NCBI GenBank assembly: GCA_029937205.1
Contig: JAPYQV010000015.1
Location: 1 to 16,033, forward strand
Direction of reading: 5' to 3'
DNA: 16,033 nucleotides
Origin: Alphaproteobacteria bacterium
Lineage (GTDB): Bacteria; Pseudomonadota; Alphaproteobacteria; UBA828
The translations under genes were made by a program, and so were the position numbers. Positions 1-16,033 of this stretch are shown one piece after another. Numbering within the stretch: the stretch's first letter is position 1; each line of letters begins with the position of its first letter. A model generated the notes under the pieces. The model saw only the letters and a list, made by a program, of their open reading frames with translations, did no database searches and was not told where the DNA came from.

Positions 1-1661
1 CTCTTGCACCTATCTCTTCAATTTGTACTTCCAGATCTGACACGACATCCTTGAACACTTCGTCCAATTTCGTTGACACGAACGGTCGGGCTTGGGAGGA
101 GATACGTGAGAAGTTCAGCAAATCATCGATTAGCGCCTGCATACGAAATGCGGCATTTTTCATTCTATCGAGATAATCTAGACCCTACTCATTCAGGCTA
201 TCGGAAATCTGAGGCCGCAAACGGTCACCGAAGGCTTGAATTTTACGTAAAGGCTCCTGAAGGTCGTGCGATGCCACGGAGGCGAATTGTTCGAGCTCGG
301 CATTTGAACGCGCAAGCTCCTCCGCACGCCTCTTGAGTGCTGTTTCTGTGCGAACACGTACCGAGACGTCATGAATCATCGCCAATACGAGAGAATCGGA
401 CGCATGTTCAATTTGTGCCAAGCCAATCTCTGCGATAAACGGCTCCACCGGATTTTGTAATGCCTTCCAGCCCACTTCTATTGCTCATGGCAAGCACACC
501 TGAGCCACCCTTCAGGGTGCGCCGTAATTCGGGATGCTGTTGCCGAATATGAGGCGGTACCAACATCTCGATTGGTTCTCCCTTCAGCTCAGCGCGCGTG
601 TATTCAAAGAGTTTCTCCGCCTGCAAATTGGAAAATGCGATAGCGCCGTCATTATCGACCGCGATCATTGCAACCGGCGCAAGATCAAGCAGCCGCCGAT
701 ACCGTTCCTCGGCCTGTTTGGCTTCGCGATACTGCAGTTTCAGTTCGATTCGATTGTGCTGCAGCGCCTTAACGTAATTCTGCTCGCGCTTGAAAAGATG
801 GAACGTGCTGATCAGAAGGCCGGTGAGTACAGCGACATAGCTCACTTTTTTCAGCAGGTGCGCGACGTCGAATTCCATGTCGAAGAGCGTTCCTGAGAAC
901 GACATGAATACGGCCTGACTAACAAACCCAATGACGATGGATATTACCAGCCAGTGCTCGAATGGGTCTTCCCGCCAACGGCCCTTCTTTAGATAGCCGA
1001 TCAAGGCCAAGAGAAAAAACAGGGCCGGTGCGAACTCCTCCGGGCGATGGAACGGTATGTCCGGATAATAGGCGGGAGGCAGGGGAACGAAAACAAACAG
1101 GACAAAACTGGCCAGCAGCAAAATGGTCGCCCAAAAATAGATCGTGCCCTCTTTGAATAATTTGGCGACGCCCAATTGGGCCTCCCGACGCCACGCCAAT
1201 ACACTCAGGAACAGAACAACGGAAAGGTAGAGCCGGGATGCAACCCAGCTCCATGGTATCAATGTGGAGAGCCCGGACGGAAACAGGTCCTTGATAATCC
1301 AGGACGTGACGATTGCGTGGTAACCGTCGAGAAACGCTGTGCCCAGGAATGCCACCCCGATGAGCAGAATCGCGCTGTTTTTTTGGCTGTAATAACGGAC
1401 CAAGGCCAAGGTACCGACCAGCATGGCCAACAATGTCGCGACCGCTTCAATGATGGTGTGAAGAGTCGCAGAGCTTTGCCAGTTGGCGCCCCTCAGCAGC
1501 AAAAACAAAACAACCAGGCCTACGGCGATCCCGGCATAGGTGCCGATGCGCAACCTAGTCCGCGCCCTTCCGCGGCCATCGTCATTGCCTGAAATCGAAT
1601 TATCAGTGTTTGAATTCTGCGCAATCACATTGTTTTTTGCGTAAACAATGTCAGCCGACAT
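1..1661 (-). pseudogene. Broken membrane-anchored PAS sensor histidine kinase, left end cut by window
   Basis: The intact N-terminal part (417 codons from the ATG at 1661, preceded by an AAGGA ribosome site) has about seven or eight hydrophobic segments between residues 40 and 290. They resemble MASE-type integral membrane sensor regions (a segment reading AFLDGYHAIVTS). A short linker and a PAS domain (about residues 318-385) follow. Near 475-490 the frame shifts by one base. The next frame continues the PAS end, a coiled linker and the HisKA dimerisation helix with the phospho-accepting His in ASHDLQEP (codon about 266-268). An in-frame TAG at 185-187 interrupts it just before the second HisKA helix (MKNAAFRMQALIDDLLNFSR), which stays open in the same frame to base 1. 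The ATPase domain would lie outside the window. Two separate lesions point to decay, though assembly errors are possible. The ligand is unknown. Confidence 0.8.
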
Positions 1662-1915
1662 AATTGCAGTCCTTCAAAAAAATAACCGATGTCTATTTGA
1701 CGGACTATTTGATCACTGCTGTTCTTAATTTATTACTAATCACAGTAAATTTATGTTTACATTACTTTGGTTCTACAGAGAATTTAGGGCGCTGCGAAAT
1801 CTAGCCTGATTGGAATAACTAATTATCTATGCGAGCTTGATGGCAACCGGTAAAAATATAATTCTGTCGCCGCTGGCGCGCCAAAATTCTCAAACATTCA
1901 AATGATTAAATGCAC
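1662..1915. other. AT-rich intergenic gap between soxG and the kinase remnant
   Basis: This 254-base stretch lies downstream of soxG and upstream of the kinase remnant, both on the minus strand. It is much richer in AT than the sox genes. It holds a dyad at 1745-1760 and presumably the old kinase promoter. I see no convincing open frame, tRNA or clear intrinsic terminator. Confidence 0.6.
1745..1760. promoter_or_regulatory. AT-rich dyad, possible operator upstream of the kinase remnant
   Basis: The sequence gtaaatttatgtttac has 5-base arms (GTAAA / TTTAC) around a 6-base centre, about 85 bases upstream of the kinase start. Its position suits a regulator site, but an AT-rich dyad this short is expected often by chance. 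Confidence 0.2.
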
Positions 1916-2530
1916 TCAATCGACGCCGCCGACCACAACGCCGTATTCCGCCGCCGCATCTTCCAACCAGACCCAAAGATAGGCGGCGAAACTCCACGCC
2001 ACATGAATGTCATAGGCCGGCGTGTCGGCGGTTTGGTGCAGCAGGATGGCAGCGCGGGCGAGGCGGGTTTGCGCGCAATGGCCGGTCTGGAAGGCGCGCG
2101 GGTGGAGATCCAGGCTGCAGCCTTTTTCCAACACCGCACGGGCGCGTGGCCCGGCCAGGGTCAACACGATGCGCGCATCACTGACATCGCTCAGCGCCAC
2201 ATGAGCGCCGGCCGCCGCCGTGGCGAGCGCTTCGTAAAGCGGATTTTCCTGCCCCATTGGTACGGTAATCAACCATTCATCGGGGCCGAGCCAAAAAGCG
2301 CCTCGGCTGTCCTGGCCGTTCGTCCGGTTTGGCTCCAATGGCAAGGCATAGCCCAAAACGCCCGCGAAAGCGCTCATCAGCGCCCCATCGGCGGGATCGG
2401 CACGCAAATTCAACTTGCCGACGGAGCGCCGCTCGGCCAACTGGACGGAGGCCTCGGGCTCGGATTGGCCCTCGCGGCCGCCAAGATGGAGGGTCGCCAG
2501 AGGACTCTGGCGCAGCGACGGATCAGCCAT
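1916..2530 (-). CDS. soxG: Sarcosine oxidase gamma subunit
   Basis: This 204-residue protein is the last gene of the soxBDAG operon. The gamma subunit is a small GcvT-fold protein that packs against the alpha subunit in heterotetrameric sarcosine oxidase (TSOX), which oxidises sarcosine to glycine. The length fits the family (about 180-210). Typical stretches include the segment reading GAFWLGPDEWLI and a C-terminal part (AYDIHVAWSFAAYLWVWLEDAAAEYG) in which family members usually carry similar aromatic-rich text. The ATG at 2530 lies inside the 3' end of soxA, an 8-base overlap, which implies translational coupling. Family assignment rests mainly on operon position plus these motifs; SoxG sequences diverge quickly. 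Confidence 0.88.
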   Translation of the reverse strand: MADPSLRQSPLATLHLGGREGQSEPEASVQLAERRSVGKLNLRADPADGALMSAFAGVLGYALPLEPNRTNGQDSRGAFWLGPDEWLITVPMGQENPLYEALATAAAGAHVALSDVSDARIVLTLAGPRARAVLEKGCSLDLHPRAFQTGHCAQTRLARAAILLHQTADTPAYDIHVAWSFAAYLWVWLEDAAAEYGVVVGGVD

Positions 2531-5516
2531 TTAAACGCTCTCCCTTGGGGTCGTAAAATACCGGGCTGACGATCTCGGCCTTCACCACGCGGCCTTCCAG
2601 GGTCAACGGCATGGTGACCGTCTCGCCGAAGCGCTCGCGCCCACTGGTAATCAGCGCCAGCGCGATCGGCCGGCCAAGGGTGGCGCTGTCATAGCTCGAG
2701 GTCACATGGCCGATCATTTTCATCGGCGGGCGGCGTTTATATTCGGCCACAATCTGCGCGCCTTCCGGTACCCGCGCCTCGGGCAGAAGGCCGACGAATT
2801 GCCTGCGGTCGGTGCGAACGGTATCGGCACGCGCGAGCGAACGCCGGCCGATAAAATCTTTCTTTTTGCTGACGATCCAATCCATGCCGAGATCGCCCGG
2901 CGTCACCGAGCCGTCGGTATCGTGGCCGACCGCGATATAGCCCTTCTCGGCGCGCAGCACATGCAGTGCCTCGGTGCCGATCGGCGTCAGATCGAAATTT
3001 TCACCGACGCGCTGAAACGCTTGCCACAGCGCCAGGCCATGGCTCGTCGCGACGCTCACTTCATAGCCGAGCTCGCCGGTGAAGCTGACGCGGAAGATGC
3101 GCGCCTCGATGCCGGCGACCCGGCCCATGCGCATCGCCATATGGGGAAAAGCGTCAGGCGCAAGATCGACACCCTCGGCGAGCTCGCTCAGCAGGCGCCG
3201 CGCGTTCGGTCCGGAGATCGAGAGCGTCGCCCACTGCTCGGACACCAAGGTGAGATAGATTTTCAAGTCCAGCCATTCGCATTGCAGCCAATCCACCATC
3301 CACGCCATGACCCTGGCCGCGCCGCCGGTGGTGGTGGTCATGAAATAGTGGTTATCGCCGATCCGCGTGGTGACGCCATCGTCCATCACCATGCCGTCTT
3401 CGCCCAGCATCAGGCCATAGCGGCAACGCCCGACGGCGAGCTTGCCCCAGTTATTGGTATAGATGCGGTTGAGAAACTGCGCCGCATCGGGGCCGTGAAT
3501 ATTAATCTTGCCGAGGGTCGAGGCATCGAGAATCGCCACCCCGTTCCGTGCTGAGATGCATTCGCGCCGCACCGCCGCCGCCATGTTCTCGCCGGCGCGC
3601 GGGAAATACCATGGCCGCTTCCAGTGACCAACATCATCGAACACCGCGCCTGAGCGCTCATGCCAGCCATGGATCGCCGTCATGCGCACCGGATCGGCGA
3701 GCACGCCGACATCGCGCCCGGCCATGACGCCGTAGGGCACCGGCGTGTAAGGCGGGCGGAACGTGGTGGTGCCGACAGCCGGGATTGGCAGACCCTTGAT
3801 CTCGGCCAGGATCGCCAGCGCGTGCATATTTCCCGTCCGCCCCTGATCCGGGCCCATGCCGGTGGTGGTGTAGCGTTTAAGATGCTCGATGGCGCCATAG
3901 CCTTCGCGCGCCGCCAGTTCGATGTCGGACACTGTGACGTCGTTGTGAAGATCGACAAAGCGCCGTTCGCCTTTGGAGACCGGCGGCAAGCGCCAGACCG
4001 GCATCAGCGGGCTGGTTTCCTCTGGCGCGACCGGCAACGCCTGTGGCGCACCGGGCTCGCTAAAACCGCTATTTGCGGCGGCATCGCGGCCCACCGCCGC
4101 GCCCTCGCCGAGACAGCCCTTGAGGGAATAGACGCCGTTCGCCGCCCCGGCGACGGAAACTGCCTGACGCGCTTTGCCGGGCAGGAAACAAGCCCGATCC
4201 TCGCTATAGTCTAACCTGCCGCCCGACTGGGAAAACAAATGCACCGTCGGAGTCCAGCCGCCCGAGAGACACAGCAGGTCGGCGCGCAGGCGGCGGATAT
4301 CACCGGCAAAACCGTCGCCCTTGTCATTCAGCGCCAGCACCTCAACTCCGCGCAGACGCTTTTTGCCGAGCGCGCCGCCAACCGCATGGCGCGCCAAAAT
4401 TTCGATACCGCGCTCTCGCACCGCCGCCACCGTTTCGCCGGCCGGCTTGGCGCGCACATCGACCACCGCTTCGATGCGCACCCCGGCATCGGCGAGATCC
4501 AGCGCTGCCTGGTAGATATGATCATTGTTGCCATAGAGTACGGCGCGATTGCCCGGCTTGACACCGTAGCGGTTGATGTAGGTCCGCGCCGCGCCGGCCA
4601 GCATGACGCCGGGGCGGTCATTGTCGGCAAAGATCATCGGGCGCTCGATTGACCCGGTCGCCACCACCACCTGGCCGGCGCGAATTTTCCACAGGCGCTG
4701 GCGCAGCGTGCCCGGCGGCGCACCGAGGTGATCGTTCACGCGCTCGACCATCAGCACATAATTATGATCGTAATAGCCGAACGCGGTGGTGCGCGAGAAC
4801 ACGCGCACCTCATCCATGCCATCCAGTTCGGCCCGCGCGCCCATGGCCCAATCGATGCCGGAAGCGGCCTCGATACGTTCGCCATTGCCGAGCAGCGCAC
4901 CGCCAAGCTCGGCCTGCTCGTCCGCCAAGATCACCCGCGCTCCGCTGCGCCCCGCGGCCAGCGCCGCCGAGATGCCCGCCGGCCCGCCGCCGACCACCAG
5001 CACATCGCAATGCTGGTGGCGCTTGTCATAAATATTGTGATCCGCGACTTGCGGCGCGGTGCCGAGACCGGCGCCCTTGCGAATGATTTTTTCATAGCGG
5101 TGCCAAAAACTTTTCGGCCACATGAAGGTCTTGTAATAGAAGCCCGCCGGCAACAGGCCGGAGAAGCGGTCATTGAGAGACCAGACATCGAACTTGACGC
5201 TCGGCCAGCAATTGACGCTCGCCGCCTCGAGCCCGTCGAACAGTTCGACCTGAGTGGCCCGCAGATTGGGCTCGCTTGCGGCGCCAACGCCCAATTGCAC
5301 CAAGGCGTTGGGCTCCTCCATGCCGGCCGAATAGATGCCGCGCGGGCGGTGGAATTTGAAACTCCGCCCGACCACACGCACGCCGTTGGCGAGCAACGCC
5401 GAGGCCAGCGTGTCACCGCCGAAACCTTCATAGGCCTTGCCGTTGAATTGGAAACTGAGGCGCCGGCTGCGGTCGATCCGGGCACCCACATCAAGGCGAT
5501 AGCGCTGCCGTCTCAT
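2523..5516 (-). CDS. soxA: Sarcosine oxidase alpha subunit
   Basis: This 997-residue subunit of heterotetrameric sarcosine oxidase binds NAD+ and tetrahydrofolate and releases 5,10-methylene-THF from the sarcosine methyl group. Residues about 15-110 form the small ferredoxin-like N-terminal domain seen in SoxA (KFHRPRGIYSAGMEEPNALVQ). Residues about 170-480 are a two-dinucleotide-binding flavoprotein-type domain with GGGPAG at 176-181 and the ATGSIERP segment near 286-293. Residues about 620-990 are a GcvT-like aminomethyltransferase domain for folate (GWHERSGAVFDDVG, FTGELGYEV, GTEALHVLRAEKGY). The chosen ATG at 5516 overlaps the soxD stop as ATGA. The open frame extends 60 codons further upstream, but that part only overlaps soxD out of frame and has no family similarity. 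Length matches the family. Confidence 0.96.
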   Translation of the reverse strand: MRRQRYRLDVGARIDRSRRLSFQFNGKAYEGFGGDTLASALLANGVRVVGRSFKFHRPRGIYSAGMEEPNALVQLGVGAASEPNLRATQVELFDGLEAASVNCWPSVKFDVWSLNDRFSGLLPAGFYYKTFMWPKSFWHRYEKIIRKGAGLGTAPQVADHNIYDKRHQHCDVLVVGGGPAGISAALAAGRSGARVILADEQAELGGALLGNGERIEAASGIDWAMGARAELDGMDEVRVFSRTTAFGYYDHNYVLMVERVNDHLGAPPGTLRQRLWKIRAGQVVVATGSIERPMIFADNDRPGVMLAGAARTYINRYGVKPGNRAVLYGNNDHIYQAALDLADAGVRIEAVVDVRAKPAGETVAAVRERGIEILARHAVGGALGKKRLRGVEVLALNDKGDGFAGDIRRLRADLLCLSGGWTPTVHLFSQSGGRLDYSEDRACFLPGKARQAVSVAGAANGVYSLKGCLGEGAAVGRDAAANSGFSEPGAPQALPVAPEETSPLMPVWRLPPVSKGERRFVDLHNDVTVSDIELAAREGYGAIEHLKRYTTTGMGPDQGRTGNMHALAILAEIKGLPIPAVGTTTFRPPYTPVPYGVMAGRDVGVLADPVRMTAIHGWHERSGAVFDDVGHWKRPWYFPRAGENMAAAVRRECISARNGVAILDASTLGKINIHGPDAAQFLNRIYTNNWGKLAVGRCRYGLMLGEDGMVMDDGVTTRIGDNHYFMTTTTGGAARVMAWMVDWLQCEWLDLKIYLTLVSEQWATLSISGPNARRLLSELAEGVDLAPDAFPHMAMRMGRVAGIEARIFRVSFTGELGYEVSVATSHGLALWQAFQRVGENFDLTPIGTEALHVLRAEKGYIAVGHDTDGSVTPGDLGMDWIVSKKKDFIGRRSLARADTVRTDRRQFVGLLPEARVPEGAQIVAEYKRRPPMKMIGHVTSSYDSATLGRPIALALITSGRERFGETVTMPLTLEGRVVKAEIVSPVFYDPKGERLNG

Positions 5517-5809
5517 GTGCCGCCGCCGTCTTGCGGCTCGATCCGGCGCGGCTCGCCCATGGCATAGACGAACAGAATCTCGTGGCTCACTGTATCGCGT
5601 TCGACATTGAACCAGCGCCGGCAACCGATGATGTGGCACCAACGCTCGGCCAGAACGCCCTTGGGGTTGTCGCGCATGAAGAGATAATCCGCCCATTCCG
5701 TGTCACTTAGTTTGTCCGGCTCTTTGGGGCGGGGAATATGCGCTTCACCGCCGCACGAGAACTCAATCTCGTCACGCGGGCCGCAATGCGGGCATTCGAT
5801 CCTGAGCAT
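5513..5809 (-). CDS. soxD: Sarcosine oxidase delta subunit, zinc-binding
   Basis: This 98-residue protein is the small zinc-binding subunit of heterotetrameric sarcosine oxidase. The expected zinc ligands are all present: Cys6 and Cys9 in CPHCG, then His59 and Cys63 in WCHIIGCRRW. The family hallmark segment around RDNPKGVLAERWCH is intact. It begins 3 bases after the soxB stop and its stop overlaps the soxA start as ATGA, so it sits in a coupled operon. Its role in the known enzyme is structural, not catalytic. Confidence 0.96.
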   Translation of the reverse strand: MLRIECPHCGPRDEIEFSCGGEAHIPRPKEPDKLSDTEWADYLFMRDNPKGVLAERWCHIIGCRRWFNVERDTVSHEILFVYAMGEPRRIEPQDGGGT

Positions 5810-5812
5810 GAT

Positions 5813-7072
5813 CTAGTGTGCCACGCCGGAGGCGCCATGTTCGTCGATCAGCGCACCGGTGGTGAAGCGCTCGAGCGCGAAAGGCGCTGCAAATTCATGC
5901 GGCTCGTCTTGCGCCATGGTGTGGGCAAAGACATAGCCAGAGCCCGGGATCGCCTTGAAGCCGCCGGTGCCCCAGCCGCAATTAAAGTAGAGCCCGGAGA
6001 CCGGCGTCTTGCCGACGATCGGGCTGGCATCCGGGCAGATATCGACGATGCCACCCCATTGGCGCATCATCTTGACCCGGCTGAAGATCGGGAACAGTTC
6101 GACCGCGGCAGCCAGCATATCTTCCAACACAAATGGCGAGCCGCGCTGGGCATAGGAATTGAATCCATCCGTGCCCGCGCCCATCACCAGTTCGCCGCGG
6201 TCCGACTGGCTGAGATAGACATGCACCGTCGCCGACATGATGACCGTGTTAAAGATCGGCTTGAGCGGCTCCGACACCATGGCCTGCAGCGGTTTACTTT
6301 GGATCGGCATGCGGAAGCCGGCCATCTCGGCCAGCACGCTCGAATGGCCCGCCACCGCAACCCCGACCTTGGGTGCGGCGATAAAGCCGCGGTTGGTCTC
6401 AACACCTTCAATGCTTCCGCCCTGTATGCGTAAGCCGGTCACCTCCGTGTGCTGCAGAATATCAACGCCGCGGTCATCCGCCGCGCGGGCATAGCCCCAG
6501 GCCACCGCATCATGGCGGGCGACGCCGCCGCGCCGTTGAATGGAAGCGCCGATCACCGGATAGCGCGAGTTTGGCGAGAGGTTGAGAATCGGCGCCAGTT
6601 CCCTGAGCTCGGCCATGGAGAGCATTTCGGAATCAATGCCGTTCAGACGGATCGCGTTCACGCGCCGACTAATCTCGCGCAAATCATGCTGATTGTGGGC
6701 GAGGCTGACCAGCCCGCGCTGGCTCAGCATGATATTGAAATTGAGATCCTGGCTCAGGCCCTCATAAAGCTTCAACGACAACTCATAGATCGCAGCGCTT
6801 TCGTCCCACAAATAGTTGGAGCGGATTACGGTGGTGTTGCGCCCGGTATTGCCGAGGCCGATCGGTCCCTTTTCCACTAGCGCCACATTGGTGAGGCCGT
6901 GCTCTTTGGCGAGATAATAGGCCGTCGCCAGGCCATGGCCGCCGCCGCCGATGATAATCGCGTCATAGGACGGTTTGAGTTCCGGGCTGCGCCATGCCGC
7001 AGCCCAATTCTCATGATAATTGCGCGCATTGCGCGCCAGGTTGAATATGGAATAGCGCTTCTTTTTTTTCAT
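5813..7072 (-). CDS. soxB: Sarcosine oxidase beta subunit, flavoprotein
   Basis: This 419-residue subunit carries the sarcosine oxidation site of heterotetrameric sarcosine oxidase: sarcosine plus O2 gives glycine, hydrogen peroxide and a one-carbon unit. The dinucleotide-binding loop GGGGHG lies at residues 42-47 and [19 protein letters not shown] follows. His187 in [11 protein letters not shown] corresponds to the histidine that covalently holds FMN in characterised enzymes (His173 in the Pseudomonas/Stenotrophomonas enzyme numbering). The C-terminal FAD contact region [16 protein letters not shown] is intact, and the end [10 protein letters not shown] is typical. The ATG at 7072 has only a weak upstream ribosome site (ggcga). 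It is the first gene of the coupled soxBDAG set and lies 284 bases after the hydrolase gene, with a structured repeat in between. Confidence 0.97.
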
Positions 7073-7162
7073 CGTTTCGCCACAGCAACCGACATAGCAA
7101 CCGACCGGCCCCCCCGAATCGGCGCGGCCATCATAGCCGAAACAACGCTCAGGCTATAGTTG

Positions 7163-7174
7163 GTGCGGATGCAC
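7163..7174. repeat. Short hairpin with the same GGAT/ATCC loop as the tandem element
   Basis: The stem GTGC/GCAC closes a GGAT tetraloop on the plus strand (ATCC on the minus strand), the same loop as in the two larger hairpins centred 81 and 153 bases away. Its flanks do not resemble the larger repeat, so it may be a chance match. Confidence 0.3.
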
Positions 7175-7198
7175 ATGAATTTCCAATATCGGCACCAC

Positions 7199-7345
7199 CT
7201 CCCAAAATGCGACTAGCATTCCGGCAAGCGCGCCAAGTCAAGGCCACGGATGTGGCCGCCCGGCGCTTGAGGGTCTTTAGAAATGAGCGACCGAGCATGC
7301 GCGAGGTAGCCAAGAGCGCGGATGCGCTCGCCCGGTGCCTGAGGG
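7199..7345 (-). ncRNA. Tandem structured element in the soxB leader, unassigned; possible cis-regulatory RNA or dispersed repeat
   Basis: Two diverged copies of one unit lie head to tail: unit A at 7345-7274 and unit B at 7273-7199 (minus-strand reading). Each starts CCCTCA[G/A]GC[A/G]CCGGGC, then a 6-bp hairpin with loop ATCC, then CTTG[G/A]CT and a weaker match CGCGC[A/T]TGC. The hairpin arms are 7314-7319/7324-7329 in A and 7242-7247/7252-7257 in B. Three of six pairs differ between copies and every change keeps pairing, so the structure is conserved. In both units CCGGGC can also pair with a downstream segment (7330-7335 with 7291-7296; 7258-7263 with 7221-7225). In A this needs one G-U pair on the minus strand, which would be an A-C mismatch on the plus strand, mildly favouring the soxB-sense strand. 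I do not recognise it as a known riboswitch class. Confidence 0.5.
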
Positions 7346-7356
7346 ACATCTAACAA

Positions 7357-8052
7357 CTACCTATTATCGAAAGCCTCGATGCCGTCGAGATATTCGAGCA
7401 CGTTGTCCAAGGGCTCGACATCGCCGAACTTGGCATCGATATCGAAGAGATTCCACTCAACCACGCCCGGCACCCGGTCGCCCACGCCTTCGCGCACAAC
7501 GATCGGGCGGAAACCCTCGGCGATGGCGTCTTCGGTCGAGTGGCGCACGCAGCCGGCCATGGTCACGCCGGTGAGGATCACCGTATCGACCCGCTGGGCA
7601 CGCAGATATCCGGCGAGATAAGTGCCATGGAAGGCGCTCGCACGTTTCTTGACGATCACCATCTCGCCATCCTCGGGCGCGATGCGGTCGTCAATCGCCG
7701 CTTCCTCGCTGCCTTCGAGCAGAGTTTCGACCGGAATTTTGTGGTGCCACAGGCCGGTATCGGAGTGCGGCCCCTTCGGGTCCTGATAGGCGGTGGTGGT
7801 GTAGACAACGGGAATTCGCTTGGCCCGTGCGGCTTTCAAGAGGGCCTGATTGGTCGGGATGATGACATCCATATCATCGCAGGTGAAGGCGTAGCCGGGC
7901 CGCGTCCAGGCATTGGCGAGGTCGATAATCACCAGCGCCGGGCGCGCGCCATAGCCGATGCGGCGTTGAAATCCGCGCTCTTTATAGATATCGGAATCCG
8001 CCGCGAAGATCACTTCCAGCGCCTTTTTTACTTCCGGACTCGTTGTCGCCAT
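7357..8052 (-). CDS. N-carbamoylsarcosine amidase-like cysteine hydrolase, isochorismatase family
   Basis: This 231-residue protein belongs to the isochorismatase-like hydrolase fold. The catalytic triad is visible: Asp44 in VIIDLANAW, Lys135 in IVKKRASAF and Cys168 in TGVTMAGCVRHS. The Lys-to-Cys spacing of 33 equals that of Arthrobacter N-carbamoylsarcosine amidohydrolase (Lys144, Cys177). That enzyme turns N-carbamoylsarcosine into sarcosine, CO2 and ammonia, which matches the downstream sarcosine oxidase genes. I chose the ATG at 8052 because GGGAGG lies five bases upstream; an in-frame ATG at 8100 has no good ribosome site. Related folds include nicotinamidase, ureidoacrylate amidohydrolase and maleamate amidohydrolase, so the substrate is an inference from similarity and context. 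Confidence 0.82.
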   Translation of the reverse strand: MATTSPEVKKALEVIFAADSDIYKERGFQRRIGYGARPALVIIDLANAWTRPGYAFTCDDMDVIIPTNQALLKAARAKRIPVVYTTTAYQDPKGPHSDTGLWHHKIPVETLLEGSEEAAIDDRIAPEDGEMVIVKKRASAFHGTYLAGYLRAQRVDTVILTGVTMAGCVRHSTEDAIAEGFRPIVVREGVGDRVPGVVEWNLFDIDAKFGDVEPLDNVLEYLDGIEAFDNR

Positions 8053-8113
8053 GGCCGCCTCCCAATTTAAGATGTGACGCAAAGTTAGCCCGGCTTTCAT
8101 TGCCGGTCCAATA

Positions 8114-8494
8114 TCAATTTGCTATGATTTGATGCCGACAAGGTATCAATATGAATATCGAACTGCGCATATCGATCGTCATGGTGGCGCGCGTACGGTT
8201 GGCGCCTAGCTTCTCGAGCCGCCATCCACCACGGGCGTCTTCGACCAGAGCGGGCAGCCCTTCCATCGACAATTTGAAGCTCTCATTCTCGTTCCACTCG
8301 AGCACGTTCTCCACGATCGTGCCGAAGCCCTTCACGTCGCAGGTGCGGCCGGCCCCGAGTCCACGCTCAACATCCGTGTGATAGTGGGCTTGGTTTATCG
8401 TCTGCGACCAATTTTTGATGTCGGTGAGATTGCTGATCTTGCGCCAGACAACGGCGATTGGGGCGTCAATTTCGATGATGCGTTGGACGTGCAT
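8114..8494 (-). CDS. SRPBCC (START-like) family protein with shortened C-terminus
   Basis: This 126-residue protein begins as a typical START-like polyketide cyclase/dehydrase family member (MHVQRIIEIDAPIAVVWRKISNLTDIKNWS). It keeps the beta-sheet region down to ATMTIDMR. The last about 15 residues (SSIFILIPCRHQIIAN) do not look like the long C-terminal helix that closes the ligand cavity in this family, and the protein is about 20-30 residues short. It may be truncated or frameshifted at its 3' end. The ATG at 8494 has GAGGA five bases upstream and is preferred over the GTG at 8506. It starts 18 bases after the TetR gene, so the two are probably co-transcribed. No substrate can be inferred. 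Confidence 0.65.
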   Translation of the reverse strand: MHVQRIIEIDAPIAVVWRKISNLTDIKNWSQTINQAHYHTDVERGLGAGRTCDVKGFGTIVENVLEWNENESFKLSMEGLPALVEDARGGWRLEKLGANRTRATMTIDMRSSIFILIPCRHQIIAN

Positions 8495-8512
8495 GATATT
8501 CCTCACTCTGAG

Positions 8513-9154
8513 TTATGCAGCGGGCTCATCCCGCGCGTTGATTCCGTCGAATATTATTTGCAGAGTCGCCCGCACCCAGTATTTGCGATATTCGGGGTCG
8601 AGCGTCGATGTGTTGAAGAACATTTCGTGCGCGTGGACGAAGCGCGCCTGATTGAGTAACCGGTCCATGAGAATGCCGGCGACGATGTCGGGATCCACAT
8701 CGGCCCGGACAAAGCCGAGAGCCATGGCTCGCTTGATGAATTCCGAAATCGCAAAGCTGGTGTTGAGCATTTCGCCGACGACGCCATCATCGGCGTAGGG
8801 AAGCAGCTGCTCGAACTCGCGAAACATGATCAGCAACGTCTCACGGTTTTCGAGATAGGCGTCGAGAAGTTGCTCGAAGAACAGCTCCACGCGAATCACA
8901 AACTCCTGCTGCGATTTCGGATCTGCCGACAACACTGTCTTCGCGTGCTCGAGCTGGAAGGACGCAAAGCTGTCGAGAATATCGCGATAGAGCTGCTCTT
9001 TGGATCCGAAGTGGTAGGTGATTGCGTTGGCGCTGGCGCCGGCGCGCGAACAGACCTCGCGCACGGACGCGCCGCGATAGCCATGCTCAGAGAACAACGC
9101 CGTGGCGGCTTCGACGATAGATTGGCGGGTGCTCATGGATCGTATTTGTGACAT
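8513..9154 (-). CDS. TetR family regulator, CerR-like
   Basis: The protein has 213 residues from the ATG at 9154, or 207 from the ATG at 9136. The N-terminal TetR DNA-binding domain spans about residues 10-57, with ALFSEHGYRGASVREVCSRAGASANAITYHFGSKEQLYRDIL containing the recognition helix. The remainder is a helical ligand-binding and dimerisation domain resembling the CerR/YbiH type (DUF1956-like). Neither start has a clear ribosome site. It is transcribed away from the reductase gene at 9323 and heads a same-strand array leading through the SRPBCC protein and the hydrolase towards sox. Such regulators usually repress the divergent gene and themselves; the inducer is unknown, and an imine, amine or N-methyl compound would fit the context. 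Confidence 0.88.
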   Translation of the reverse strand: MSQIRSMSTRQSIVEAATALFSEHGYRGASVREVCSRAGASANAITYHFGSKEQLYRDILDSFASFQLEHAKTVLSADPKSQQEFVIRVELFFEQLLDAYLENRETLLIMFREFEQLLPYADDGVVGEMLNTSFAISEFIKRAMALGFVRADVDPDIVAGILMDRLLNQARFVHAHEMFFNTSTLDPEYRKYWVRATLQIIFDGINARDEPAA

Positions 9155-9160
9155 TCATAA

Positions 9161-9172
9161 TAATATATATTA
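9161..9172. promoter_or_regulatory. Perfect AT palindrome at the TetR start, possible operator or promoter part
   Basis: TAATATATATTA is a perfect 12-base palindrome just upstream of the TetR gene in the divergent region 9155-9322. Its position suits autoregulation or a promoter element. It is pure AT, so chance occurrence is a real possibility. Confidence 0.3.
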
Positions 9173-9261
9173 CGATCATAACATATGTCAATATCAGATC
9201 CGCCGGCAGACTGGCCTCAAAATGAGTTATCGTTTTTGTTGGTCTATTGGACTTCGATTGT

Positions 9262-9271
9262 ATCAATTGAT
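9262..9271. promoter_or_regulatory. Perfect palindrome upstream of the reductase cassette, possible operator
   Basis: ATCAATTGAT is a perfect 10-base palindrome about 50 bases upstream of the cassette start. A TTGGAC hexamer lies just upstream of it (9248-9253). It is a candidate site for the divergent TetR protein, but nothing proves binding. Confidence 0.25.
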
Positions 9272-9322
9272 CTGTCCGGCAAGAGAACCTCGGGCACGAG
9301 GCTGAGTTTGGAGGAGCATGGT

Positions 9323-10240
9323 ATGGACATCTCGGTGATTGGTATCGGTGCGATGGGTGCGGCTGTGGTCGAACGCCTGCTCGCGACCGGCCATCGCGTC
9401 ACGATCTACAACCGCTCAGCTGAGCGCTCTCTGCCGCTCGCCGATAAAGGCGCTCGGGTCGCCGCTTCGGCGCGCGACGCGGTCGAGGCATCGGCGCTCA
9501 CCATCTCCCTTGTTGTGGATGCGCCGGCGATGGAAGCGGCAATCCTTTCGGATGAGATCGTCGCGCTCTTTGCCGGCAAGGCATTCATGAAGATGACGAC
9601 GACGAATGGCCGGGTTGCACGCGAAGTAGCTGGCCGGGTGACGGCGGCCGGCGGGCGTTGCCTGGATATCGCGATCCTGAATTTTCCCGACGATGTGGCG
9701 GCCGGTAAAATGCATGCCCTGGTCGGTGCGAGCCAAGCCGACGTCGACAAATGGGCCGCGATGCTGAGCGATCTGGGGCCGAGGATTGTCAGGGTTGGCG
9801 ATGTTGGCACGGCATCCATTGCAGAGAACGCGCTGCTGCAAATCATGATGTTTCAAGTCGTGACGTTTGCCTATGGTTTGGCGGTATTCGAGCGCGCAAA
9901 ATTGCCCCAGAATGTGCTCATGGAGGCGACAGGTGAAAATCCATTGTTTCAGATCTCGATGGGCGAGTATTTCCGCGATCGAATGACAAATCGCGATTTC
10001 ACACCACCGCTTTATCGCCTGGCAAAGCATACGATGGACATGCAACTCACGCTCGACGATATGGAGGATTTGGGAATCATGACCGATGGCGTCCACGCCC
10101 TGCGCCAGATCTTTGTGAAAGCGACGGCGCAGGGACTGAATGAAAACGACTACAGTGCCATCTATGACATCATCTGCGCGCGCGGCAGCGACAACATGCG
10201 TTCGGCCGTAAGTGGCGCGATCGAACCGCAGGATACCTAA
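9323..10240 (+). CDS. NAD(P)-dependent beta-hydroxyacid dehydrogenase / imine reductase-like protein lacking the family lysines
   Basis: This 305-residue protein starts at the ATG at 9323, chosen because GGAGG lies about eight bases upstream and the Rossmann loop GIGAMG then falls at residues 7-12 as usual. The open frame upstream to 9185 has no family similarity. The fold follows 3-hydroxyisobutyrate/6-phosphogluconate dehydrogenases: an N-terminal nucleotide domain to about residue 160, then an all-helical dimerisation domain. The substrate motif DxPVSGG is replaced by DIAILNFPDD (115-124). The catalytic Lys in GxxxxxKxxNN is replaced by Glu168 (GTASIAENALLQ), and the later KDL lysine position reads TMDM (237-240). 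Loss of the lysine is typical of imine reductase-like members, so reduction of a C=N bond is plausible but unproven. The DAO-type gene follows after 3 bases. Confidence 0.8.
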   Translation: MDISVIGIGAMGAAVVERLLATGHRVTIYNRSAERSLPLADKGARVAASARDAVEASALTISLVVDAPAMEAAILSDEIVALFAGKAFMKMTTTNGRVAREVAGRVTAAGGRCLDIAILNFPDDVAAGKMHALVGASQADVDKWAAMLSDLGPRIVRVGDVGTASIAENALLQIMMFQVVTFAYGLAVFERAKLPQNVLMEATGENPLFQISMGEYFRDRMTNRDFTPPLYRLAKHTMDMQLTLDDMEDLGIMTDGVHALRQIFVKATAQGLNENDYSAIYDIICARGSDNMRSAVSGAIEPQDT

Positions 10241-10243
10241 GCC

Positions 10244-11575
10244 ATGCTTCATCGCCGCATGCGATCGACACCGCTCACAGATTCCCTGTGGTCGCAAAAT
10301 GCGGCGGCACCACCGGAGACGCCGGCGCTGGAAGGATCGGTTCGGGCGGACGTCGCCGTCATCGGCGCGGGGTATACGGGTCTTTCGACCGCCCTTCATC
10401 TCGCCCAACGGGGCATCGATGTCGCGGTGATCGAGGCCGACGAGGTCGGCTATGGCGGCTCGGGCCGTAATCTTGGCCATTGCACGCCGACCTTCCTCTA
10501 CCGCGAGGTCGACGAGGTGCGGCGTATGCTCGGGCCAAAATGGGGCGAACGATTTATCCGCCTGCAAGCAGATGCCGCAAATCTCGTTTTCGAACTTATC
10601 CGGCGCTACGACATCGACTGCGAGGCCAAGCAGAACGGACTCCTCCAGGTTGCTCTCGGGCCAAGCGCGATGCCGCTCTATGAAAAACGTTGCGCCACAT
10701 ACACGGCGCTCGGAAAAGCCTGCCGAATGCTTGACCGCGACGAGGTCGCCAGCTTAACCGGAACAGATCGCTATCACGGCGCCTGGCTCCATCCCGAGGC
10801 CGGGCATCTCAACCCGCTCGGTTATGCGCGCGGATTGGCGCGCGCGGCGCTCGCCGAGGGCGCCTCGGTTTTCACCCAGTCACCGGCGCTGTCGCTCAAC
10901 AAAGAAGGTGGCAAATGGCATGTGCGCACGGCGCGCGGCGAAGTGATCGTGGACAAAATTGTTATCGGGACCGGCGCCTATTCCGATGATCTCTGGCCAG
11001 GGCTCAAACAAATATATTCAATCATTATCGCCTTCGGCCTCGCCAGCGAGCCGCTCAATGAAAATGTCATCAAGACTGTGCTGCCCGGCGACAACCATGT
11101 CGTCGACAGCGCCGGTGACACGCATTTCTACAAACTCTCGGGGCAGCGAATTGTTGCCGGCGGCATGCTTGAAGCGAAGTTCGGGCGAAACCTCGACTTC
11201 ACGCGCCGCGTCATGAGTGAGCGCATGGCGTGGCTCTTTCCTCAAGTCGGCACGCTGGATTGGCCTCATTTCTGGTGCGGCAACATGGATGTGGTGCCGT
11301 CAACGCTGCCGAGCTTTTACGAATTGGCGCCCGGCGTAACGACGGTGATCGGCTATTCGGGGCGCGGCATCCCGACCGCAACCGCCATGGGAACCCAACT
11401 CGCCGCTTACGCGGCAGGAACGCCCGCAGAAGACCTCAGCGTTGAAATCAAGACGCCAAAAGCGCTTCGCTGGCGAGGATTGATAAGCAATGCCTATGTT
11501 CTCTTAGGACCGCTCTACCGCCTCAAAGACCGCCGCACAGCACGGCGCGACGGGGTAGAGAAAATACCTTTTTAA
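10244..11575 (+). CDS. FAD-dependent amine/amino acid oxidase (DAO family, PuuB-like)
   Basis: This 443-residue flavoprotein belongs to the D-amino acid/glycine oxidase superfamily. It begins with the WSQNAAAPPETPALEG-type leader common in gamma-glutamylputrescine oxidase-like members, then the FAD loop GAGYTG (41-46), the EADEVGYGGSGRNLGH segment (64-79) and the C-terminal FAD contact GYSGRGIPTATAMG. These enzymes oxidise amines or secondary amino acids to imines. The gene starts 3 bases after the reductase stop; an AGGA lies 10 bases before the ATG, and a second in-frame ATG is at 10259. The pairing with an imine reductase-like gene and a carrier suggests catabolism of an imported amine or N-methyl amino acid. 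The exact substrate cannot be read from sequence. Confidence 0.85.
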   Translation: MLHRRMRSTPLTDSLWSQNAAAPPETPALEGSVRADVAVIGAGYTGLSTALHLAQRGIDVAVIEADEVGYGGSGRNLGHCTPTFLYREVDEVRRMLGPKWGERFIRLQADAANLVFELIRRYDIDCEAKQNGLLQVALGPSAMPLYEKRCATYTALGKACRMLDRDEVASLTGTDRYHGAWLHPEAGHLNPLGYARGLARAALAEGASVFTQSPALSLNKEGGKWHVRTARGEVIVDKIVIGTGAYSDDLWPGLKQIYSIIIAFGLASEPLNENVIKTVLPGDNHVVDSAGDTHFYKLSGQRIVAGGMLEAKFGRNLDFTRRVMSERMAWLFPQVGTLDWPHFWCGNMDVVPSTLPSFYELAPGVTTVIGYSGRGIPTATAMGTQLAAYAAGTPAEDLSVEIKTPKALRWRGLISNAYVLLGPLYRLKDRRTARRDGVEKIPF

Positions 11576-11589
11576 GGATTGGTGGCACG

Positions 11590-12834
11590 ATGAACTCAAT
11601 TCGTGAGACTGCGCCGGAGCCTGTTTATCGTTGGGTGATTGTTAGCGCATCGGCGCTTATGCTCGCACTTAGCATGGGCATGATGGTCAATGGGACCTCT
11701 GTCTTATTCATACCGCTTTTTGAAGAGTTCGGTTGGCAGCGTGGTGCCGTCTCGCTGATAAATACCTCAGGCATGGTCGGTCTGGCTATTGGCGGCATTT
11801 TTATGGGCCGGATTGCGGACAAAACGCCAATCCGCCGGGTCGTACTGGTTGGCGCGGTAGTTATTGGGCTCTGCATGTTAGGCGCTTCACAGGCAAACGC
11901 CTTGTGGCAGTTTTACGTGCTATTTTTTATCGCTGGATTTCTGGGAGTTGGAGCCCTTTTCGCGCCCTTGATCGCCAATGTGGGAAATTGGTTTAAAACG
12001 GGTGCTGGATTGGCGCTGGGCATTGCCGCAGCGGGTCAGGCTTTGGGCCAGGGTGGGATGCCTTATGTGCTGGCGCTATTGATCGGTGCTTTGGGCTGGC
12101 GCGATGCATTAATGAGTGTTGGTTTGACCATGCTTGTGTTGCTGATATCGCTGGCCATGTTGATCAAACAACCGCCTAAAAACACAACATCTTCAGACAC
12201 CGGCGCAGCGGACGATCCGTTGGCCGACGTCGGGGACACTGTTTTGATTGCTCCCAATACCATTGCGCTGTGGCTAGGTGCGGCGGCAATTTTGTGTTGC
12301 ACCTGCATGGCGGTTCCTTTGATGCATCTGGTGCCTTTAATGCAGGACCGGGGCATTCCACTGGAAGATGCGGGCAGTGTGCTTTTTGTTATGTTGGTTG
12401 CCGCGATTGCGGGCCGCATTGCCTTTGGCAAACTGGCCGACATGATCGGCGCGATCCGGAGTTATTGGATTGCTTCGTGCTTTCAGACGGTGCTGGTCTT
12501 TTTCTTCCTACAGATCGACACACTCCAGGGGTACTATATTTTCGCGGTCATTTACGGCTTTGGTTACGCCGGTGTCATGACGGGCATTCTGGTTTGTGCG
12601 CGGGCCTTAACACCGGTATCAAAGCGGGCTTCCGTGCTTGGTATTGTCTTATTTTTTGCGTTTATGGGCCACGGCATCGGCGGGTATCAGGGCGGGTTCT
12701 TTTTTGATTTGACCGGAAATTATACTCTGACTTATGCCAATGCTGCCATTGCAGGAATCGTAAATCTGATTTTAGTTGGCGCGTTATACATCACGACAAA
12801 CCGCCGCCGCACCGCCCTGGCGTTTGCGACGTGA
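11590..12834 (+). CDS. MFS transporter, oxalate/formate antiporter-like (monocarboxylate type)
   Basis: This 414-residue membrane protein has about 12 hydrophobic segments in two halves, with a polar central loop near residues 195-220. The loop between helices 2 and 3 reads MGRIADKTPIRRV, and its counterpart in the second half is FGKLADMIGAIRS; both are the MFS signature pattern. The opening FIPLFEEFGWQRGAVSL is typical of the oxalate/formate and monocarboxylate-like MFS group. It starts 14 bases after the flavoprotein stop, with GGTGG just before the ATG, so it is probably the last gene of the cassette and the importer of its substrate. Base composition and codon use are clearly more AT-rich than in the flavoprotein gene before it, suggesting a separate origin. 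The substrate is unknown. Confidence 0.85.
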   Translation: MNSIRETAPEPVYRWVIVSASALMLALSMGMMVNGTSVLFIPLFEEFGWQRGAVSLINTSGMVGLAIGGIFMGRIADKTPIRRVVLVGAVVIGLCMLGASQANALWQFYVLFFIAGFLGVGALFAPLIANVGNWFKTGAGLALGIAAAGQALGQGGMPYVLALLIGALGWRDALMSVGLTMLVLLISLAMLIKQPPKNTTSSDTGAADDPLADVGDTVLIAPNTIALWLGAAAILCCTCMAVPLMHLVPLMQDRGIPLEDAGSVLFVMLVAAIAGRIAFGKLADMIGAIRSYWIASCFQTVLVFFFLQIDTLQGYYIFAVIYGFGYAGVMTGILVCARALTPVSKRASVLGIVLFFAFMGHGIGGYQGGFFFDLTGNYTLTYANAAIAGIVNLILVGALYITTNRRRTALAFAT

Positions 12835-12880
12835 AGGCGACATACCACAAACCGTTCGGGCAACCGGGGGAGTGTTGATC

Positions 12881-12903
12881 ATCACAGTCTGCTGAATTGT
12901 GAT
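12881..12903. repeat. Inverted repeat between converging genes
   Basis: Arms ATCACA and TGTGAT flank an 11-base centre in the 73-base gap between the MFS gene and the HxlR gene, which converge here. No T run follows on either strand, so it is a poor intrinsic terminator. It might be a weak transcription block or chance. Confidence 0.2.
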
Positions 12904-12907
12904 CGCT

Positions 12908-13576
12908 TCAGTCTCCGTGTGCAAAAATGGTCATTGCCGCACCCATCAGCGTCATAAACTCCCTATCCTTGTTCGTCGTGTGACAGACCATTTCGACGTG
13001 GTTGCGCAAAAATTGATCCATCGGTATTTCACCCTCCGCTGCCGCCATCATGGGCTCGTAGGATGACGTCATGACGATGTCGGGTGATTTGGCGGGCGCA
13101 TAGCGCATGTCGACCGACCCCTCGCCGACTTCGAGCGTAAAGTGCTCACCGTCGACAATAATCTCGGCCACAAAGCGCGCGTCCGGCGTCACCACGCGGC
13201 GCATTGCGGTGCGCATGGAGAGCACAATCGTTCGCAGGTTTCCAGGCTTGCGCGGCTCTTCGTCGGGTTTAAATCGACCGCCAAACATGGCCAGTTCAAA
13301 CAGCAGCTCATCTGTAGAAGCGCCAAGTTCGGTGAGCTCGTAAAGGGTGATGCCATGTTCGCCGCTGCGCTTCACCACCAGCCCGTCGGCCATCAATTGC
13401 TGCAGACGATCGGTCAAAAGATTGGTCGCGATGCCGGCCAAACCGCTCTCAAGTACTGAAAACCGGGCCGGGCCGGCGTGCAGGTCGCGCAATATCAACA
13501 AGGTCCAACGATCGCCGATGCGGTCTAACGCGCGCGCGATTGAACACAGCAGTCTGTAGCGACGGGATCGGGCCAT
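12908..13576 (-). CDS. HxlR family winged-helix regulator with SCP2-like C-terminal domain
   Basis: This 222-residue protein starts at the ATG at 13576, preceded by AAGGAG eight bases upstream; the GTG at 13585 would sit on that site. Residues about 8-100 form an HxlR winged helix (SIARALDRIGDRWTLLILRDL, then RFSVLESGLAGIATNLLTDRLQQL and GHGITLYELTELG-like wing text). Residues about 115-220 resemble the sterol carrier protein 2-like domain found fused to some HxlR regulators (LEVGEGSVDMRYAPAKSPDIVMTSS). That domain may bind a lipophilic ligand; this is inference. It diverges from the DUF1330 gene across an AT-rich region with an inverted repeat, so it probably controls that gene and itself. 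Confidence 0.85.
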   Translation of the reverse strand: MARSRRYRLLCSIARALDRIGDRWTLLILRDLHAGPARFSVLESGLAGIATNLLTDRLQQLMADGLVVKRSGEHGITLYELTELGASTDELLFELAMFGGRFKPDEEPRKPGNLRTIVLSMRTAMRRVVTPDARFVAEIIVDGEHFTLEVGEGSVDMRYAPAKSPDIVMTSSYEPMMAAAEGEIPMDQFLRNHVEMVCHTTNKDREFMTLMGAAMTIFAHGD

Positions 13577-13602
13577 GAGCGCCACTCCTTCACGAGAAGA
13601 TG

Positions 13603-13640
13603 ACTTTATTTTATAAATTTATCACTTGATTTAATAAAGT
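13603..13640. promoter_or_regulatory. Inverted repeat in the HxlR/DUF1330 divergent promoter, likely operator
   Basis: Perfect 8-base arms ACTTTATT (13603-13610) and AATAAAGT (13633-13640) have centres 30 bases apart, about three helical turns, so two subunits could bind the same face. A perfect inner palindrome ATAAATTTAT lies at 13613-13622. The right arm overlaps the spacer of the proposed DUF1330 promoter, which suits repression. Confidence 0.5.
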
Positions 13641-13656
13641 ATATACATCATATAAT
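13626..13656 (+). promoter_or_regulatory. Candidate sigma70-type promoter for the DUF1330 gene
   Basis: A perfect TATAAT lies at 13651-13656, with TTGATT at 13626-13631 and a rather long 19-base spacer. Transcription from here would give a leader of roughly 105 bases before the ATG at 13770. Confidence 0.4.
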
Positions 13657-13769
13657 CCACTATCGGCTCTGGCAGATGATTGAACACAAAATATCAACCC
13701 GATCAAGGATCACAGAAACCAGTTTCTGGCCACATACGGCCGTCACGCACGTTTGAAAGGAATAAAAAG

Positions 13770-14063
13770 ATGAGCGCACTCATGATCGCCAATGTTACCG
13801 TCAAAGATCCCGCGAAATTCCAGGAATACATCGCCAAGACGACGCAGGTCGCTGGAACCTTCGGCGCCGAGTTGCTGGTTCGTGGCAAGGCAGACAGGGT
13901 GTTGAGCGGCGAGAGCAAGGATCACGACCTCACCATCATCGTCAAATTTCCCAGTCTCGAAAAAATCAATGAATGGTACGGATCGGATTCCTATAAACCG
14001 CTCAAGACGTTGCGCGAAGAAGCAGCGGACATGCAGATGACGAGCTACGAAGTGATGGGGTAG
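13770..14063 (+). CDS. DUF1330 family protein
   Basis: This 97-residue protein is a small ferredoxin-like alpha/beta barrel protein of the DUF1330 family. Typical features are the opening MIANVTVKDPAKFQEYI, the segment GAELLVRGKADRVLSGE and FPSLEKINEWYGSDSYKPLKTLR. The ATG at 13770 has AAGGA eight bases upstream; the in-frame extension to 13680 lacks both a ribosome site and family similarity. The family has no settled biochemical role. It stands alone, divergent from the HxlR gene and followed by a strong hairpin, so it is probably a single-gene unit controlled by that regulator. Confidence 0.85.
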   Translation: MSALMIANVTVKDPAKFQEYIAKTTQVAGTFGAELLVRGKADRVLSGESKDHDLTIIVKFPSLEKINEWYGSDSYKPLKTLREEAADMQMTSYEVMG

Positions 14064-14074
14064 CCGGCTTTTTC

Positions 14075-14100
14075 GCCCGATGAGACCGATCTCATCGGGC
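14075..14100. terminator. Strong hairpin between converging genes, probable terminator
   Basis: Arms 14075-14085 and 14090-14100 form an 11-bp perfect stem with the 4-base loop ccga, 11 bases after the DUF1330 stop and 8 bases before the crotonase stop. The trailing T run on the plus strand is weak (gcttta), so it may act as a bidirectional or factor-assisted terminator. Confidence 0.6.
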
Positions 14101-14108
14101 GCTTTACC

Positions 14109-14921: not shown

Positions 14922-14972
14922 GGTCTCGCTCCCTGGTGCGGCGATTATTTTAGAGAGCGCGAGGATAGCACC

Positions 14973-15020
14973 GCGCGGCCGCTTGAGCATCATGGCGTAC
15001 GCTGAAGCAGCGCGGCCGCT
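14973..15020. repeat. Pair of 11-base GC repeats, self-complementary core
   Basis: GCGCGGCCGCT occurs at 14973-14983 and 15010-15020 in the gap between the crotonase gene and the small membrane protein gene. The core GCGGCCGC is a palindrome, so the copies could also pair as an 8-bp stem across 29 bases. No T run follows. Confidence 0.35.
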
Positions 15021-15206
15021 CTAATTCTCAGGCGGGCGCGCCTCTTTCTTCGGCTCCGGGAATATCCACAGCGAACCGGCCATGAACAGGCCGAGGCCGA
15101 TGATGAACCATTTGATGCTGCCGGCGGCCTGATGCTCGAAATAGGCTGCCACCAGGGCGGCCAGGACGATCAGAGCGGAGACGATGATCTTAATGTTGGT
15201 CGGCAT
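15021..15206 (-). CDS. Small two-helix membrane protein
   Basis: This 61-residue protein has two hydrophobic segments, about residues 5-22 (IKIIVSALIVLAALVAAYF) and 31-48 (IKWFIIGLGLFMAGSLWIF), and a charged proline-rich tail (PEPKKEARPPEN). It follows the fatty acid hydroxylase-like gene by 10 bases on the same strand, so the two are probably co-transcribed and both sit in the membrane. The ribosome site is weak (GGCGAGAAA). I recognise no family. The hydrophobic pattern and close spacing support it as a real gene; it could be a partner or simply a hypothetical. Confidence 0.65.
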   Translation of the reverse strand: MPTNIKIIVSALIVLAALVAAYFEHQAAGSIKWFIIGLGLFMAGSLWIFPEPKKEARPPEN

Positions 15207-15216
15207 GATTTCTCGC

Positions 15217-15984: not shown

Positions 15985-16033
15985 TATTCTGCACTCCCCA
16001 CGTCAAGCTCTACCCGCAACACCATTCGAGTAG

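Follow-up and report, generated by a model that had tools for sequence, protein, structure and literature searches.

A probable two-unit copy of a dispersed MITE-like palindromic element between an amidohydrolase gene and soxB in an alphaproteobacterium

According to the text of Di Nocera et al. 2013 (PMC3733652), most REPs can be sorted into a GTAG and a CGTC class. Br-REP1 of Bradyrhizobium is described in the text of its report as three palindromes present in many copies and transcribed in convergent 3'-UTRs (PMC5082802). The feature analyzed here lies in a 16,033-nucleotide stretch of an alphaproteobacterial genome (the window; assembly GCA_029937205.1, contig JAPYQV010000015.1, positions 1 to 16,033), in the spacer between an amidase gene and soxB, and the preliminary description had taken it for a ligand-sensing leader RNA of soxB. 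It is instead very probably a copy, with two units, of a palindromic mosaic element that resembles MITEs and is dispersed in Alphaproteobacteria. The element is a widespread repeat whose ends are clear in distant relatives and degenerate in the window copy. The literature searched by sequence words and host names, a collection outside which most subscription journals lie, returned no description of it.

The copy between the amidase gene and soxB

The gene for sarcosine oxidase subunit beta, soxB, occupies 5813–7072 on the minus strand (TIGR01373, 683.6 bits, above cut-off) and is followed downstream by soxD, soxA and the gene of a SoxG-like protein (PF04268; 123.1 bits against an NCBIfam cut-off of 143.95). 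An isochorismatase-fold amidohydrolase gene (7357–8052, minus strand; PF00857, 110.5 bits) has its stop codon 11 nt before the element. The composite two-unit element spans 7190–7345 on the minus strand, as delimited by the family consensus, by an empty site in a congeneric genome (G002) and by matches to the covariance model R1 at 7345–7296 and 7273–7199. The two units are arranged head to tail on that strand, as first described, with starts at 7345 and 7273 and tags of the form CCCTCA..CCGGGCG; the element extends to about 7190, where it ends in GGTGGTGCCG.

All parts of the copy are read on the minus strand, from the sequence and the family consensus. Unit A opens with the tag CCCTCA-GG-CACCGGGCG (7329–7345), which shows a single departure from the consensus CGCCGGGCG, and continues with hairpin HP1, a GAGCGC/GCGCTC stem below an ATCC loop (7314–7329; also placed by the family alignment), and with the linker TTGGCTACCTCGCGCATGCTCGG, which holds the conserved CTTGGCTACCTCG..CTCGG block (7291–7313). 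The inter-unit spacer TCGCTCATTTCTAAAGA (7274–7290) has similar counterparts in other composite copies. Unit B, the inner unit, consists of the tag CCCTCAAGCGCCGGGCG (7257–7273), identified by the head pattern, a hairpin with a GGCCAC/GTGGCC stem and an ATCC loop (7242–7257), and the linker CTTGACTTGGCGCGCTTGCC with the rest of the second hairpin module (7223–7242). There follow a third hairpin, HP3 (CCGGAATGC..GCATTTTGG; 7202–7224), which is the terminal hairpin of the family and is imperfect here, and the 3' end block GAGGTGGTGCCG (7190–7201). The window copy has neither the 5' terminal hairpin nor exact transposon ends.

The six-pair stems of the two units (7329–7314 and 7257–7242) differ at three pairs, every one of which is still paired, in agreement with the preliminary description. 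The second pairing proposed there, of CCGGGC with GCTCGG or GCCGG, is not the conserved lower helix of the family, which is formed by GCCGG with TTGGC and shows little or no variation in alignments of 36 and 25 copies; in the window one pair of this helix is broken in each unit by an A for a G (CACCGGG in unit A, CTTGAC in unit B). Single-sequence folding is weak on both strands (z of -1.50 on the minus and -1.33 on the plus strand), and a direct-repeat search of the spacer found none at the settings used. There was no Rfam match on the window and none at E ≤ 1 on 7080–7360, and ten related loci returned tRNA and tmRNA only. An intrinsic terminator was rejected: a simple scan of 6900–7600 found no terminator-like site, and T-runs precede the heads (37 of 64 first heads) and do not lie 3' of the hairpins.

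Between the element and soxB, and outside the element, lies a promoter-like box, TTTCGGCTATGATGG (7128–7142, minus strand), whose TATGAT aligns in five of six congeneric genomes; all of the six but G003 have TTT(C/T)GG(G/C)TATGAT or a near variant in the interval from the element position to soxB. By its look the box is a candidate -10 region of a soxB promoter, and a simple sigma-70 consensus scan of 6900–7600 returned no site, the box at 7142–7128 included. The window copy sits between the stop codon of the amidase gene and what is probably the soxB promoter. The best SoxB match in five congeneric genomes is 87–90% identical, and the amidase–soxB gene pair, with the end of the amidase gene upstream of SoxB as judged by eye, is common to six. 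The element occupies the spacer in two of these (G000 and G001), and by eye and by model is missing from the other four (G002, G003, G004 and G005), whose spacers are short. G001 carries a single-unit variant directly past the amidase stop, the only model match among the five congeneric sox loci at E values up to 1 (56.3 bits). The spacer of G002 aligns to the window on either side of the insertion and represents an empty site. The window copy has no special tie to sarcosine metabolism.

A dispersed repeat whose hairpins vary by paired changes

The genome of the window, which is 87% complete, contains at least 56 BLAST matches to the spacer (40 of 92 candidates scored). The head pattern CCCTCANGCNCCGGGCG, with up to two mismatches, occurs 55 + 57 times there against 4 + 3 for the reversed control, and R1, built from 36 single-unit copies, has at least 84 matches on both strands (150 of 3966 candidates scored). 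The preliminary description had itself named many hits on both strands with no common gene as the sign of a dispersed repeat, and this is the distribution observed. In 53 loci of the genome and the window there are 78 head clusters; eight lie inside genes predicted by a simple codon-usage gene finder and were set aside, and the remaining 70, on both strands, are intergenic. The spacers that hold them are convergent in 24 cases, codirectional in 29 and divergent in five, with one neighbour missing in 12. Convergent placement is enriched (p = 4e-7) relative to the spacers of the same loci (34 convergent and 59 divergent, element spacers included), and 25 of the 41 copies with a same-direction upstream gene start within 30 nt of its stop codon. 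The bias toward gene 3' ends is modest in G195, a genome from another family of the class (eight convergent against five divergent, p = 0.03), and is not significant in the class-wide named set (14 convergent and 11 divergent, p = 0.15; eight of 88 cores inside genes and 18 without a neighbour). Six genes of mixed kinds separate close copies in the 53 loci and the window; from the look of their translations they are metabolic or transport genes and one fragment, with no transposase evident among them.

The range of the element extends through the class. R1 has matches in 22 of 60 genomes, and the pattern CCCTCANNCGCCGGGCGN(10-17)CTTGGCT was found in 29 of 385 genomes of the class and in eight of 398 genomes of the phylum, all eight within Alphaproteobacteria; the window's own genome is included in each count, and the reversed control gave 0 in every row shown for the class. 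Hosts among the 80 matching stretches listed, of at least 118, include Azospirillum, Niveispirillum, Nitrospirillum, Magnetospirillum, Roseomonas, Telmatospirillum, Erythrobacter, Qipengyuania and Sphingomonas. Three plasmid records gave matches, with no annotated feature, and phages gave no match at E 1e-5. In Falsiroseomonas bella two element units lie near a tmRNA gene (L113, 6945–7454).

In many copies the hairpins are kept by paired changes. An alignment of 36 genus copies (A1, which omits six of 42 single-unit copies, four of them with a longer first module) has 92.0% of its cells paired and 53 double-change cells, against 11.4 after shuffling. Helix 1 (GCCGG/TTGGC) has its two G-U pairs in every one of the 36 copies, and two positions of HP1 are mispaired in 12 and 13 of them. 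In an alignment from G195 (A4; 25 of 38 matches, 30 of which have loci, five of other anatomy being omitted) the three helices are 99.0% paired, with 86 double-change cells against 30.8 after shuffling and no more than 20 in slid controls. The preliminary description had treated compensatory change between the two window units as direct evidence for selection on structure; the paired changes stand in both alignments, and the weight laid on two copies was too great because the units belong to different recurring subtypes. In the four outer pairs of the variable stem, counted over 62 distinct spacers (80 named loci of at least 118 class-wide stretches), there are 231 Watson-Crick pairs, three G-U pairs and 14 others, against 90, 21 and 137 in the shuffled control. 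This near-absence of G-U pairs outside the two fixed steps is better explained by a constraint that acts on the DNA or equally on both strands, or by palindrome correction, than by the ordinary drift of an RNA. The tag and the two G-U steps vary little or not at all within the genus and G195, and the same holds for most of the distant copies inspected.

The two-unit arrangement is itself recurrent. Among 24 neighbouring same-strand head pairs of the window's genome, 11 are spaced by 71–75 nt, and the inner CCAC-RTCC-GT hairpin type, to which unit B belongs, recurs in nine. The shared spacing and inner hairpin indicate that the window pair is a recurring composite, and on these two grounds a local duplication of two diverged units was ruled out. 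Three further arrangements were seen in the same genome. At L022 (contig C130) the element, at 2016–2114, seems to provide the stop codon of a neighbouring gene whose G001 counterpart, read by eye, ends without it. At L064 (contig C24, about 149–246) inverted head units form a near-perfect long palindrome (CCCTCAAACGC...GCGTTTGAGGG). Repeats of GGGGACAG (AATTATGGGGACAGGTTTATTAATTATT) lie 116–170 nt past an element head at L014, L018, L053 and L055, and five of eight occurrences of GGGGACAG in 56 loci, among which some contigs are represented twice, are within 250 nt of a head; the motif fits the GGGGWSAS of TIRYT-type terminal repeats as given in the text of PMC3733652.

Ends, target duplications and turnover of copies

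In distant copies a hairpin stands before the tag and another past the core, and the copies end in TACCA and TGGTA. Further covarying hairpins come after the core, whose order is CCCTCA-nn-CGCCGGGCG-hairpin-CTTGGC. Most copies with both ends measure about 135–170 bp. Both ends (TACMA...KGGTA) are kept in 23 of 281 cores, and the 258 cores without both end motifs were left out of the end analysis. Directly outside the ends, 14 of the 23 copies have an exact 3-bp TNA duplication, against a mean of 3.7 and a maximum of nine in 2000 shuffled pairings; the duplication is missing in nine of the 23, including all four both-ended copies of the window's genus. Twelve of these 23 copies had guided the definition of the ends, for which the shuffled pairing and a search blind to the core served as controls. 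That search, for TNATACCA and TGGTATNA with equal TNA, returned 16 pairs in 2.72 Mb, most of it gathered around cores or their hosts. The core is present in all 13 TNA-matched pairs of 141–175 bp (duplications included) and in two of the three longer pairs. The longer pairs (981–1432 bp) hold frames of 236–292 aa, and no clear autonomous partner with the same ends was seen among the 16. A coding function of the element was rejected, the longest frames in the 13 shorter pairs being 44–55 aa. TGACC stands 19 nt from the end at nine of 23 left and six of 23 right ends, and 22 nt from it in one more, against a background rate of 0.05 in any 42-nt stretch.

Most copies of the window's genus are without the 5' terminal hairpin and exact ends. 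A hairpin of the TACCAACGGGTCATAAGAATGACCCGTTGTA type was counted by hand at 11 distinct places in the genus loci analyzed and is followed by a head on its 3' side at ten, with 35 nt from hairpin start to head in nine and 43 nt in one. Copies also come and go between related genomes. At 20 syntenic sites compared between G000 and G001 (flanks 67–86% identical), the element is missing from G001 at ten, as confirmed by the model; the share of sites at which it is present is biased upward, since about half of the G001 stretches were chosen around copies of its own. Unit number differs at several other sites (for example two to one, one to three and one to two), two of the G001 copies are degenerate, and at L009 (position 2027) the orientation is opposite in the two genomes. 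Mobility of the element is supported by these empty sites in the genus together with the target duplications of both-ended copies.

A 3-bp target duplication is the product of a staggered cut and fits a DDE-type transposase, not Y1 chemistry, of which target duplications are not expected. Transposition of the IS200/IS605 type employs an HUH enzyme, is not known to leave a target duplication and has a replication-strand bias. The TNA targets found here may resemble those of IS5-family groups. Y1_Tnp was detected in eight of 40 element genomes (three of 21 and five of 19, some of the genomes being incomplete). Nine Y1_Tnp genes have an intact head on one side in two cases and a two-mismatch head in a third, and none has intact heads on both sides in the surrounding loci, some of which are cut by contig ends. 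On the G195 chromosome 16 of 28 copies are codirectional with replication (p = 0.57), which is no strand bias; the copies were counted by hand, and 19 noisy samples of skew served to place the origin and the terminus. On the same chromosome (G195:C1, 1.8–3.4 Mb) copies occur in strand runs, seven of eight on the minus strand at 1.8–2.56 Mb and then eight of eight on the plus strand.

The target duplications lead us to infer that both-ended copies entered their sites through an enzyme whose cuts are staggered by 3 bp; this would most likely be a transposase of the DDE type supplied in trans. The arms of the hairpins would stay complementary either because the structure works as DNA or because palindrome correction re-makes them. 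In the window's genus, where most copies have no 5' terminal hairpin, species differ in the unit number at one and the same locus, which gives one-, two- and three-unit copies, and the copies that persist would mostly be those at gene 3' ends, where they would do the least harm. A sequence so placed may also have a secondary role in the stability of 3'-UTRs.

Alternative explanations and comparison with known repeats

A cis-acting, riboswitch-like leader of the soxB operon would be codirectional with soxB and could consist of two aptamer-like units with covarying stems, all of which the window copy offers. This reading can be given almost no credence: dozens of copies stand beside different genes on both strands, most copies do not appear to share a downstream gene (70 intergenic clusters on both strands, 24 of them convergent, and genes of mixed kinds, judged by eye, between close copies), the element is missing at the sox locus in four of six congeners that share the gene pair and so is not conserved at orthologous loci, the conserved TATGAT box, a candidate promoter, lies downstream of its place in five of the six, and Rfam has no match. 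The window copy belongs to a mobile repeat of many alphaproteobacteria whose copies stand chiefly in intergenic spacers, often directly past stop codons, and it does not act as a sensor for the sox operon. A functional 3'-UTR RNA (a stabiliser, an attenuator or a source of small RNA), spread by transposition and with its core kept for the gain of host genes, would account for a core more conserved than passive filler and for the proximity to stop codons; the invariant tandem G-U pairs could suit an RNA as well, and the text on the Bradyrhizobium repeats reports transcription of three palindromes in convergent 3'-UTRs (PMC5082802). G-U intermediates are nearly absent, however, copies are inserted in both orientations, and half of the 20 syntenic sites are empty in G001, so that this reading is somewhat unlikely.

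The double changes with few single-sided intermediates could also have arisen through template-switch (quasi-palindrome) correction in replication, in which one arm is rewritten from the other with no selection involved. The near-invariance of the tag and the G-U steps across copies shows that these parts at least are constrained, and we regard correction as a possible but not the favoured source of the paired changes. A REP- or BIME-type element moved as single-stranded DNA by a REP-associated tyrosine transposase (RAYT) would resemble the present element in its many copies, in palindromes that are imperfect, in a conserved tag that stays unpaired and in the placement near stop codons that the text of PMC3733652 reports for REPs. 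It was rejected as improbable on the scarcity of Y1_Tnp and on Y1_Tnp genes without heads on both sides; the TNA duplications and the absence of replication-strand bias in one chromosome also speak against it and against IS200/IS605-type movement in general. The MITE-like mosaic element is the reading that we retain. It is conceivable, if rather doubtful, that it belongs to a class-wide, unnamed superfamily of mobile palindromes with the tag CCCTCA, ends TACCA/TGGTA, TNA targets and a conserved, covarying multi-hairpin core, one end detached in some lineages and growth by tandem accretion, which would have become the standard 3' end of many genes, a mobile 3'-UTR module.

Compensatory changes between tandem units are insufficient for calling a leader RNA, as repeats bear the same signature, and hairpin-rich intergenic regions of Alphaproteobacteria could pass for new structured RNAs. 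The ends and the tag of the element provide search patterns for annotating such regions. The element is also a test bed for how REP-like repeats move without a RAYT, as in the CGTC class, and for whether palindromic repeats that lie at the ends of genes are parasites or serve as parts of 3'-UTRs.

The element is probably distinct from the REP families of PMC3733652, judged by their written descriptions in that text. The GTAG REPs and BIMEs with RAYTs are like it in being short, intergenic, high-copy palindromes with an unpaired tag, in their preference for convergent and codirectional spacers by stop codons and in their alternative complementary stem residues (PMC3733652). The present element differs from them in its CCCTCA tag, in several hairpins of fixed order over about 135–170 bp and in its TNA duplications, and no link with a RAYT was found, Y1_Tnp being as infrequent and as poorly flanked by heads as reported above; GTAG is not its tag, and when read from the opposite strand a GTAG (GGTAGCCAAG) is frequent within the genus of the window and only sporadic elsewhere. 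The CGTC REPs share the main host class, have no known transposase and are placed at 3' ends, and CCTC, a reported variant of the CGTC tag, sits within CCCTCA (PMC3733652). In the element CCTC precedes a variable dinucleotide and not the A-T stem start of CGTC REPs, whose stems are described as 8–9 bp long with A-T as the first two pairs, followed in most cases by a CCA tail, features that the element does not have; CGTC REPs are also reported missing in Acetobacteraceae (PMC3733652), whereas the element is found in Roseomonas and in MAGs titled Acetobacteraceae. Of the consensus sequences of Br-REP1 and Br-REP2, those printed in the text lack the CCCTCA..CGCCGGGCG core; Br-REP1 is a close functional likeness, with three palindromes in convergent 3'-UTRs (PMC5082802). 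Compared with bacterial MITEs, the element has hairpins at both ends, a conserved and covarying inner core and tandem units. It resembles them in being short, non-coding and present in many copies, with terminal inverted repeats in 23 of 281 cores (the window copy not among them) and a target duplication in 14 of those 23.
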